A DNA stretch of 64,000 nt from Limnohabitans sp. TEGF004 (lineage in GTDB: Bacteria > Pseudomonadota > Gammaproteobacteria > Burkholderiales > Burkholderiaceae_C), in the NCBI RefSeq assembly GCF_027924965.1, contig NZ_AP027056.1:682001-746000 (forward strand), given 5' to 3'. Below the pieces are notes generated by a model that made no database searches, had not been told where the DNA came from, and was given only the letters and a program-made list of their open reading frames with translations. How positions within the stretch are numbered: the stretch's first letter is position 1; every line of letters starts with the position of its first letter. The position numbers and the translations under genes are program-made. This document shows positions 7,041 through 22,881 of this stretch, piece by piece.

Positions 7041-7136
7041 GAGGGGTTTGGGCATCTGTTTACGCTCATGTCCCCCGATTCAGGCAAAGCCTGAATCTCC
7101 TCCTTGACTTCGCTACAACAGATACCCAAACCCCTC
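7041..7136. repeat. long palindromic element, family 1, copy A
   Basis: Outer arms 7041-7060 and 7117-7136 are complementary at 19 of 20 positions. Inside them lies the family core: TACGCTCATGTCCCCCG (7061-7077), an inner hairpin (GATTCAGGC/GCCTGAATC around an AAA loop, 7077-7097), then CTCCTCCTTGACTTCGCT (7097-7114). It sits between convergent genes, so it may act as a two-way transcript end. Not a standard terminator: there is no T run. Confidence 0.8.
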
Positions 7137-7240: not shown

Positions 7241-7346
7241 GGCCCATGCAGCTTGGGTGTCTTGTGGAGCGAAGTCAAGGAGGAGAGAGGCGCTTAGCGC
7301 CTCTCGGGGGACATGAGCGTAACAAGGCGCCCAAGCTGCATGGGCC
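7241..7346. repeat. long palindromic element, family 1, copy B (inverted relative to copy A)
   Basis: Outer arms 7241-7265 and 7322-7346 match at 23 of 25 positions and share no sequence with the arms of copy A. Read on the minus strand the core is TTACGCTCATGTCCCCCG, an inner 9-bp hairpin (GAGAGGCGC/GCGCCTCTC, loop TAA on this strand), and CTCCTCCTTGACTTCGCT. Together with copy A it fills most of the 357-bp gap 7018-7374, where I see no gene. Confidence 0.8.
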
Positions 7347-19342: not shown

Positions 19343-20170
19343 TCAGATGAGTTTGTCGTCTGGGGTTTGAATTTTCTTCAATGCCTGCACACGCTGTGCA
19401 GGTTGCAGCAAGGGCGTGGCAGTGGCCGCACCGTTCCACACGGGATCTTCAATGCCGTCAAACACTTCGCGCAGTTTGACGCCCCATGTGTTGTGCATCA
19501 TCTGAAAGTACGGATTGTTTTCGTCAATGCAAACCACCTTGTCGCTTTCAAACTTGTCGGCTTCGTAAACCACCATATCGAGCGGCAGACCAACAGAGAG
19601 ATTGGACTTGAGTGTGGAGTCCATCGACACCAACGCACACTTGGCGGCTTCGTCCAGCGGGGTGTCTGGATGCAACACGCGGTCAAGCACGGGCTTGCCG
19701 TATTTGGATTCGCCAATTTGGAAGTAGGGTGTTTCAGCCGTGGCTTCGATGAAGTTGCCGGGTGAGTACACCTGGAACAAACGCATGCCTTCGCCTGCAA
19801 TTTGCCCACCAAAGATGAGCGACACATTGAAGTCCACACCCGAGGCTTTGAGGGCGGCTGCATCGCGCTCGTGCACACGGCGAATGGCTGCGCCTAATAC
19901 GCGCACCGCATCAAACATGCTCTTGGCGTTCCAGATGGTGATGGGTTCGCTCTCGGGGGTGTCTTTGAGTTGCTCGACTTGCAAGATCTCACGCACCGAT
20001 TGCGAGATGGACAAATTGCCTGCCGACAACAACACCATGAAACGGTCGCCCGGCTTCTCGTACACGATCATTTTGCGGAAGGTGCTGATTTGGTCGAGGC
20101 CCGCGTTGGTGCGCGAGTCGGACAAGAACACGAGGCCCGCTTTGAGTTTGATACCGACGCAGTAGGTCAT
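19343..20170 (-). CDS. Anbu-type proteasome-like peptidase
   Basis: 275-residue member of the proteasome beta-subunit superfamily, Anbu group (ancestral beta subunit). The start [24 protein letters not shown] is characteristic; after Met removal Thr2 is the expected N-terminal nucleophile. Anbu forms open-ring assemblies of uncertain substrate. It usually lies with alpha-E, circularly permuted ATP-grasp and transglutaminase-like genes; none is here. Instead its ATG overlaps the mutS stop by 4 nt (ATGA), implying translational coupling with MutS. Confidence 0.9.
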
Positions 20171-22881
20171 AACAGTTTCTTCAATTGATACAGAGCGTCC
20201 AACGCATCGCGTGGACTGAGTTTGTCGGGGTCGATCTCGGCCAGCTTGGCTTGCAGTGGGCTGGGGCCCACATCGTCTTGCAACGGCGGTGGCGCAAACA
20301 GATCGACTTGTACCTTCGATGCGTCAGCCCCCGCTTCAAGCGAGGCCAACGCATGGCGGGCATGACTGAGTACAGCAGAAGGCATGCCAGCTAAGCGAGC
20401 CACTTGAATACCGTAGCTGCGGCTGGCGGGACCGGGCTGAATTTCGTGCAAGAACACAATGCTTGCGCCACTCTCGGCCGCGCTCACATGCACGTTCACC
20501 GCAGCGCGGTGGTTGGCAGGGAATTCGGTGAGTTCAAAGTAATGCGTGGCAAACAGCGTGAAGGCTTGGGTCTTGTCATGCAAGTGGGTGGCAATGCCGC
20601 TGGCCAAGGCCAAGCCGTCAAAGGTGGATGTGCCGCGACCAATCTCGTCCATCAACACCAAGCTGTGCGGCGTGGCAGCGTGCAAGATTTGCGCGGCCTC
20701 GGTCATTTCCAGCATGAAGGTCGATTGCGCGTTGGCCAAGTCGTCGGCCGCACCAATGCGGGTGTGGATGGCGTCAATCGGGCCTAAGCGGCAAGCCGTT
20801 GCGGGCACATGGCTGCCAATGCTGGCGAGCAGCACGATGATGGCCACTTGGCGCATGTAGGTCGACTTACCGCCCATGTTGGGGCCGGTGATGACTTGCA
20901 TGCGGTGCAGATGGCCCAGCCGCGTGTCGTTGGCAATGAAGGTTTTGGCTGCGCCGCCAGCCACCACGCCATGCGTTTCAGCCAAGCGGGCTTCCACCAC
21001 GGGGTGGCGGCCTTGCTCAATTTCAATGCACGGTGTTTTCACAAACTCAGGTGCGCACCAGCCCAGCGTGAGCGAGCGTTCGGCCAAGGCGCACAGTGCG
21101 TCGAGCGTGGCCACGGCTTGCGCCAAGCGGGTGAGTGCGGGCACGAACTGCTGCAAGGTGTCGAGCAGTTGCTCGAACAAAAACTTCTCGCGGGCTAGGG
21201 CACGCTCTTGGGCGCTGAGCGCTTTGTCTTCAAAGGTTTTGAGCTCGGGCGTGATGAAGCGCTCGGCGTTCTTCAAGGTTTGGCGGCGCGTGTAGTCGGC
21301 CGGCACTTTGTCGATCTGGCCTTGCGTGACCTCGATGTAAAAGCCATGCACTTTGTTGAACTGCACGCGCAGGTTGGCAATGCCGGTGCGCTCGCGTTCG
21401 CGGGCTTCGAGTTCAAGCAAGAAGCCATCGCAGTTGTTTTGGATGGCGCGTAGCTCGTCCAGGTCAGCGTCGTAGCCGTGGCCAATGACGCCACCATCGC
21501 GCACCAAGACGGCGGGCTCGGGCAGCAATGCGCGTTCGAGCAATGCACCGCATTCGGGCGGCACGCCCATGTCTTGGGCGATTTGCACCAACAACGTGGG
21601 CGACAGAAGCGAGGGCGGCAGAGCGCTCTGCTGCGTGTCCCCCGCTCGCTGCGCGAGCTCCTCCTTGACCTTCGCAGAGCGCTCCACCGCCCTCGCTTCT
21701 GAGGCGATAGGAATCAGCGGCTGAATGCGCAACGCCTTTTGCAGCGCCTGACCTAAGGACACCAATTCACGTGGACGCACTTGGCGCAGCGACACGCGGG
21801 CGCTGATGCGCTGCACATCGCCTGAGCCTTTGAGGGCGTCGCGCAGCACTTTGTAGCTTTGCGTGCGGTTGTCTTGCAGCGCTTCAATAGCGGCCAAGCG
21901 GTGCATGGCTTGCGTGCGGTCGCGCTCTGGCGAGAGCAGCCAGTTTTTGAGCTGGCGGCTGCCCATGCCCGTCATGCAGGTGTCGAGCAACGAGAACAAG
22001 GTGGGCGAGTCTTCGCCGCGCAGTGTTTGGGTCAGCTCTAGGTTGCGACGGGTGGTGAGCGGCAGGTCGATCAGCGCATCGTTGCGTGCCACGTACACGC
22101 CGTGCATGTGTGTGAGGGCGCGACCTTGGGTATGTTCAGCGTAGGCCAGCAGTGCGGCGGCGGCGGCGTGAGCTTGCACTACGTCTTGTGCGTTCCACGC
22201 ATTGAGCGAGGCGGCTTGCAAATGCTCCAGCAGCTTGCGGCCACCCAAAGCGGCATCAAACTGAAATGCGGGGCGCACTTGAGCGGGCAGGCCAAGGTTG
22301 CTGCAAAAGTTTTTCAGCTGTTGCTCAAACGCGGGGCTAACCTCGGCGCTGTAAATGATTTCGCTGGGGGCCACGCGGGCAATCCAGTTGGGCAGCTCTG
22401 CTGTCTCACACTCGGCCAAGTGCACCAAGCCTTGCGTGACGCTGAGCCAGGCCAAGCCGCATCCGGCGCGGTCGCTTTGGTGAATGGCCAATACATAGGC
22501 TTCGGTTTTGTCGCTGAGCAAGGCGCTGTCTGTGAGCGTGCCCGGCGTGACCACGCGCACCACTTTGCGCTCGACAGGACCTTTGCTCGCACCCACATCG
22601 CCCACTTGCTCGCAAATCGCCACGGATTCGCCTAGCTTGATGAGGCGTGAGAGGTAGGTTTCGAGCGAGTGAAACGGCACACCGGCCATCACCACGGGCT
22701 CGCCGTTGGACTGGCCGCGTTGCGTGAGCGTGATGTCGAGCAGGCGCGTGACCTTCTCAGCGTCCGCAAAGAACAACTCGTAAAAGTCGCCCATGCGGTA
22801 GAACAACAGCGTCTCGGGGTGGTCAGCTTTGAGCCCCAAGTACTGCTGCATCATGGGTGTGTGCCCAGACAAATCACGCAT
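20167..22881 (-). CDS. mutS: DNA mismatch repair protein MutS, carrying an in-frame palindromic insert
   Basis: 904-residue mismatch-recognition ATPase (E. coli MutS is 853). The mismatch-contact motif GDFYELF lies near residue 32, the Walker [10 protein letters not shown] in the C-terminal half, and [14 protein letters not shown] is the Walker B/signature region. Residues about 394-426 are encoded by a 96-bp palindromic element; from memory of E. coli MutS this falls in a loop of the lever (domain III) ahead of [13 protein letters not shown] sequence, and replaces nothing essential. The gene follows suhB by 30 bp and overlaps anbu by 4 nt. Confidence 0.97.
21605..21700. repeat. long palindromic element, family 1, inside mutS
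   Basis: Exactly 96 bp. Arms 21605-21631 and 21674-21700 match at 25 of 27 positions. The core holds GTCCCCCG (21637-21644), an inner hairpin (GCTCGC/GCGAGC, 21644-21658) and CTCCTCCTTGACC (21658-21670) then TTCGC. The frame is preserved, adding 32 residues to MutS. The core matches the two copies at 7.0-7.35 kb. Confidence 0.85.

Follow-up and report, generated by a model that had tools for sequence, protein, structure and literature searches.

A palindromic repeat family inserted in frame in mutS of Limnohabitans and in other conserved genes, with cores that appear to invert in place

The element in mutS and the other copies in the genome

The analysed window, a stretch of 64,000 nucleotides from the genome of Limnohabitans sp. 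TEGF004, carries on its minus strand a mutS gene of 904 amino acids (20167-22881), recognised from the list of open reading frames (ORFs) and from its MutS relatives. Within this gene, at 21604-21701, lies an inverted repeat to which no strand is assigned, and most of it is also matched by the covariance model of the repeat family (21613-21692). Its arms (21604-21631 and 21674-21701) are 28 nt long, 93% complementary and spaced 42 nt apart, and the core between them is asymmetric. The core consists of a first conserved box, GTCCCCCG, on the plus strand at 21637-21644, found from the sequence and by pattern search, an inner hairpin at 21644-21658 (plus, from sequence and folding), and a second conserved box, CTCCTCCTTGACC, at 21658-21670 (plus, from sequence and a mismatch search of the window). 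On the coding strand the second box is GGTCAAGGAGGAG and is read as V-K-E-E, and once the core is flipped the box holds a TGA. The insert corresponds to MutS residues 392-427 or thereabouts, and the reading frame is kept. The original prediction of a palindromic element lying in frame in mutS therefore holds; its 27-nt arms are inverted as claimed but one nucleotide longer, and the predicted gain of 32 codons is in frame but amounts to a net 33 residues in comparison with relatives of 871 amino acids.

As DNA, the plus strand of the element folds at -39.9 kcal/mol (z -5.9, shuffles -23.8); as RNA, the mutS-sense strand reaches -78.3 kcal/mol (z -7.8, shuffles -49.2). In neither case was any of 200 shuffles equally good. 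The only exact occurrence of the 13-nt second box in the window is the one in mutS; copies with one mismatch are at 7097 and 7273, and when up to two mismatches are allowed the window has six matches against 1.0 expected.

Among the 120 MutS relatives listed, the best one with a species name is that of L. curvus (99%), while four proteins of 861-871 amino acids (P0058, P0061, P0063 and P0065) have a short linker and no insert, as exemplified by QPLIPATNSPLLAHIAQ in P0061, and more distant rows likewise have a short linker. The clean gap that had been foreseen for relatives is thus present, with the expected size and place, and the loop also varies in length between relatives at this point. When the protein is aligned to a solved MutS, 5x9w, the insert is in a stretch left unaligned (query residues 385-446, chain 375 and 401), and with 1e3m, which we take to be E. 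coli MutS, the second aligned stretch begins at query residue 434 (chain 393). The proposed position in a loop agrees with this gap, and the loop would belong to the lever domain. An AlphaFold model from a 42-sequence alignment had a mean pLDDT of 49.6 and a pTM of 0.34, with the insert below 50, and was set aside.

Patterns find four copies, and the covariance model (E <= 0.001, Infernal's stricter filters) finds the same four copies in this genome. Two of them form a converging intergenic pair, at 7046-7131 on the plus strand and 7251-7336 on the minus strand (both covariance-model matches), and these are the two elements in which the same core had been noticed before. The fourth copy is situated about 104 kb away within an ORF of 463 amino acids for glycerate 2-kinase (DUF4147 and MOFRL domains), and it uses the same reading frame as in mutS, RSAQVKEETAQRAGDTEQSALP. 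The glycerate 2-kinases of two congeners, G001 and G006, are without the element and read VTIRKQTAGTPKGRGGRAGEF and VTIRKQAPGTPKGRGGRAGEF, while the filled site reads VTIRKAERVAGRSAQ...HARPGRGGRAGEF and is longer by a net 25 residues, with the frame kept; filled and empty sites differ too much for a target-site duplication, as a MITE would leave, to be read. In Limnohabitans as a whole the covariance model matches 24 of 84 genomes. The boxes thus recur elsewhere in the genome, even in frame in a second gene, and the insert is not common to MutS throughout the Burkholderiales, which supports the earlier reading of the palindrome as an inserted repeat tolerated as peptide.

A dispersed repeat family that enters genes

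All members share one layout, an outer stem, GTCCCCCG, an inner hairpin, CTCCTCCTTGA and the other side of the outer stem, and the stems change freely between copies but remain paired. Across 35 diverse copies 91.6% of the cells are paired (53.0% when shuffled), 262 cells have changed on both sides (72.6 when shuffled) and the covariation score is 0.895 (0.185 when shuffled), and none of 500 shuffles reaches any of these three values. Two further measures out of five were no better than the shuffles, namely the double-change pairs (20 vs 18.5) and the further pair types (57 vs 53.2). When the partner is slid out of register, pairing falls to 37-47%. The outer stems have at least 12 of 21 positions paired in 155 of the 216 unique box matches, with a bimodal distribution, and when the arms are dealt anew 17% reach 12 pairs; a few of the 61 matches below that value are true but diverged copies (e.g. 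L169 and L248). The conservation of the boxes is partly built in, since the copies were collected by means of them, and copies found with the model carry the variants CTCCCCCTTGAC, CTCCTCCCTGAC and CTCCTCCTTTAC.

The box pattern is present in 99 of 399 genomes of the host family and in 62 of 141 genera, with up to 68 matches per genome, a few of them overlapping, while the reversed pattern, used as a control, was found in five of the 399 genomes, once in each. A scan of named genomes covered at least 119 stretches, with many further matches there without stems; among the matches listed, stemmed elements occur in Variovorax, Acidovorax, Rhodoferax, Ramlibacter, Hydrogenophaga and others, and also in Xanthomonadaceae, for instance Thermomonas, Luteimonas, Stenotrophomonas rhizophila and Lysobacter. 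Matches to the boxes in Streptomyces, in archaea and elsewhere have no stems and were not counted as members. A Hydrogenophaga MAG also has two facing xanthine riboswitch matches (L166, 1438-1631), away from the element. Doublets are common and nearly always converging, although G163 and G248 have neighbours in the same direction; in the 18 converging pairs examined, the cores are spaced by 103-116 nt in 12 and by 123-311 nt in six. With genes called by a home-made program, 42 of 124 copies lie between converging genes, 41 between co-directed and seven between diverging ones, one lies at an edge and 33 lie inside an ORF, many of the last being spurious; ORFs such as L119, L085 and L120, which look spurious or where the copy lies upstream of the likely true start, were dropped by judgement. 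The copies thus make up a dispersed family of palindromic repeats, most of them intergenic, hosted by Burkholderiales of the Comamonadaceae type, freshwater bacteria among them, and by some Xanthomonadaceae. In the open-access literature, searched for the box sequence, REPIN/RAYT, coding palindromes and the host taxa, none of the papers listed was found to describe it.

Beyond what was originally predicted, the family reaches other conserved genes. Coding copies are read from the strand opposite the boxes as ...AQVKEEPAxRAGDTEQS..., and a profile of this peptide matches 52 of the 399 genomes and 29 of the 141 genera, a search that is biased to one frame and includes some short ORFs and strands opposite a flipped copy. 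Short VKEE-reading ORFs in G153, G258 and G456 were rejected as coding copies, being the strand opposite flipped mpl genes. In Mpl (L090 named through NCBIfam, the other loci through shared motifs) the unflipped copy is found in 11 genomes of seven genera, flanked by the motifs VSARLGG and FVIEADEYD or by close variants of them, and the flipped copy in six further genomes, which makes eight genera for both orientations together. The scans also name PutA, where the copy sits within the P5C dehydrogenase match, as well as HrpA, MutL, CobB, a GNAT acetyltransferase, an AraC-type regulator and a DNA methylase. An ORF that we take to be ThiG had no NCBIfam match at 1e-10, and in a pseudouridine synthase and an IMPDH-like ORF the copy lies close to the start and is perhaps untranslated.

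For the 55 copies of the gene-entering subtype, open antisense frames number 48, 40 and 45 and open sense frames 41, 40 and 20, so that stops limit the choice of frame only mildly. The copies judged to be in real conserved genes nevertheless share one frame (mutS, glycerate kinase, putA, mpl, mutL and two near N termini). Of 120 MutL relatives 85 are of the VKEE type, 29 are not (including diverged VKGE and VQEE) and six could not be parsed. The linker of P0283, P0284, P0290 and P0299 holds ...VRAEPVEA...PSTSSGRT... instead, presumably the translation of a different palindromic repeat that is common in bacteria. At the Mpl site P0193, P0204, P0205, P0216, P0228, P0230, P0174, P0178 and P0221 have other inserts, for instance ...APSGGSEPHAVGSVGATF and ...LPPEGALSPWGGPAA, which may be further coding repeats; with such inserts in 11 of 116 rows the site looks like a hotspot. 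One mpl locus, L307 in G248, has two tandem copies of the element, separated by a repeat of part of the host segment.

Two orientations of the core

The peptide of the MutS insert has two main forms. In their DNA the arms are alike, and the core that lies between them in the second form is that of the first turned round, which gives two open readings, VKEE...GDT and CPPLA...PPLP. In the mutS alleles L018 and L019 the cores agree at 37 of 39 positions as reverse complements and at 13 of 39 directly, while the flanks agree directly (28/31 and 26/30). Three other pairs have the same value of 37/39 for the reverse complement: mpl L318/L332 (direct 18/43, flanks 25/31 and 25/30), hrpA L306/L331 (direct 19/43, flanks 24/31 and 23/30) and, from different genera, mpl L302/L328 (direct 18/43, flanks only 19/31 and 19/30). 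From these alignments we conclude, as a new finding, that in mutS, in mpl and in hrpA the core has turned round where it stands, between the two arms.

The 74 MutS rows comprise 42 of the VKEE type, nine flipped, six remnants and 17 without the insert (three of 77 rows were dropped as short, and P0070 was scored as without since its region was unparsed), and their tree needs seven changes of orientation, with 36 of 71 inner branches open. In Mpl 116 of 120 rows were parsed, 87 of the VKEE type, 11 flipped, 11 with other inserts and seven empty; the flipped label needs six changes, four of them forced by starred branches. The hrpA copy is flipped in G425 and unflipped in G203, which belong to one genus. 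The number of flips is soft, since the MutS tree has weak resolution and flipped alleles could pass from one strain to another by recombination.

Inverting the core puts the TGA of the box in frame, and this TGA is lost in all seven clear flipped coding copies (one in mutS, five in mpl and one in hrpA), which all have TTTACC; L305, which is open in both directions, was left out of that count. The unflipped copies in long ORFs have TTGACC in 41 cases, TTTACC in ten (L305 included), and TTCACC and TTAACC in one each. A synonymous change of GTC to GTA that primes a copy for flipping was considered, and the idea is weakened by the occurrence of TTTAC in intergenic copies too.

The two arms of one mutS allele pair at 21.9 of 24 positions, whereas arms combined from different alleles pair at 19.5 of 24 (11 alleles, three alike), as template switching would give. 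Two remnants, NSPKEGDTQQSGLPP in L020 (G024) and ASTSAKRETEPSLL in L022 (G074), are by their sequence consistent with an in-frame loss of most of the core. In two draft genomes the contigs end in or beside the mutS element (L036, L038), which could be caused by mixed orientation or by the palindrome itself.

Origin of the inversions and likeness to known systems

The explanation that we prefer, with a probability of roughly three in four, is a coding palindrome of the RPE or REP kind that, once inserted, evolves by DNA template switching. One subtype would be accepted as an in-frame peptide where conserved proteins have variable loops or linkers, and in part of Limnohabitans it would have come to occupy the MutS loop. 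Within a gene the long inverted arms would prompt replication errors, and template switching between them, which we infer to be the cause of the inversion, would keep the arms matched, turn the core between its two open readings and now and then remove most of it, while selection on the host gene would preserve the frame throughout. The peptide itself is probably neutral for the host protein. No transposition was seen, and the 11 loci with a Y1_Tnp domain and the association of Y1_Tnp with the element over 399 genomes revealed no mover.

That the element is instead a repeat of the REP/REPIN type, mobilised in trans by a RAYT (a Y1 HUH transposase) that acts on its hairpins, we consider rather unlikely, even if the hairpins, the converging doublets, the preference for 3' ends of genes and some intragenic copies are REP-like traits (PMC3733652, in the part available to us). 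All nine element-bearing genomes tested have a Y1_Tnp, mostly as one match, but no credible element lies within about 1.5 kb of the 11 loci, where one pattern match with three mismatches (L104) lacks stems. Y1_Tnp is present in 76 of the 99 genomes with the element and in 203 of the 300 others (Fisher p 0.10), some genomes with 4-13 pattern matches (e.g. G331, G417 and G266) have none at E <= 1e-4, and the boxes, inspected by eye, carry neither a GTAG nor a CGTC tag.

The strong covariation and conserved loops, together with the excess of copies between converging over diverging genes given above, might point to a functional structured RNA or a terminator at gene ends, of which the coding copies are strays. 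We hold this to be improbable, since presence is patchy even in close congeners, the copies occur on both gene strands and, in the part of the source that we could consult, template switching alone can keep stems paired with no need for a function (PMC8794818). Rfam 15 has no match to the element at the gathering score either, only 22 weak ones, mostly microRNA hairpins and all far below it.

The two orientations could also be independent insertions with no inversion, since a dispersed element might enter a permissive site repeatedly, and the Mpl site does hold other inserts (11 of 116 rows). The arms vary between copies, yet alleles of the two orientations have both arms and flanks in common (28/31 and 26/30 in L018/L019), and flipped alleles are found among close relatives of unflipped ones, which makes this quite improbable. 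It is even harder to believe that the inversion is a reversible contingency mechanism for mismatch repair. The flipped reading of the window allele contains a TGA, so that a flip would cut MutS short near codon 415 and a second flip would restore it, and the mutL of another genus has related in-frame copies; still, no such OFF allele was found, and the flipped coding copies scored have lost the stop. That an ordinary length-variable loop has become a palindrome by chance is practically negligible, although the loop does vary in length, since it is contradicted by the same boxes and structure at three other places in the genome and in other genes, and by the fold of the mutS element (z -5.9).

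To our knowledge, palindromes that code for protein are known mainly from Rickettsia. The present family would add a second, large example among free-living bacteria, with copies in genes for the recycling of the cell wall, for proline catabolism and for an RNA helicase, and in mutS as well as mutL. The cores inverted in place would be a natural record of how long palindromes evolve inside genes, and both the neutrality of the inserts and their mode of mutation are directly testable, since both orientations, remnants and empty sites are available for comparison.

With the Rickettsia palindromic elements (RPE) the family has in common a palindromic repeat, there of about 100-150 bp, that sits both between genes and, in frame and with a conserved peptide, inside many conserved genes of unrelated kinds (PMC2229807, PMC10969869, both available in part). 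The resemblance first suggested therefore stands in the sense that the element works like an RPE; the hosts are other bacteria, and the likeness is to the RPE as described. Inversion of the core in coding genes is not mentioned for RPE in the parts of these papers that we had at hand. The REP/REPIN likeness includes hairpins, dimers, sites near 3' ends of genes and intragenic copies often in DNA repair genes (PMC3733652, likewise in part), and our element also forms inverted doublets, but it is larger and two-tiered with freely varying stems, no GTAG or CGTC tag is conserved beside the hairpin by eye, and no RAYT gene flanked by the repeat was found at the 11 Y1_Tnp loci (association p 0.10). 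The available text of that paper contains neither mutS, Burkholderi-, Comamon-, Variovorax nor Acidovorax. Correia elements of Neisseria are likewise short palindromic repeats with a reported inversion, which according to the excerpt at our disposal concerns promoters upstream of genes and not reading frames (PMC10969869). The yeast case involves no dispersed repeat family, and the inverted spacers tabulated in the accessible part of PMC8604942 comprise 2-5 substitutions and 2-5 bp as against about 40 bp here, a greater length that is the gap between this precedent and our claim. In coding genes of yeast, according to the same part of that paper, template switching at inverted repeats does homogenise the arms and invert the spacer, and it does so recurrently at some genes, in likeness to what we propose for mutS, mpl and hrpA.
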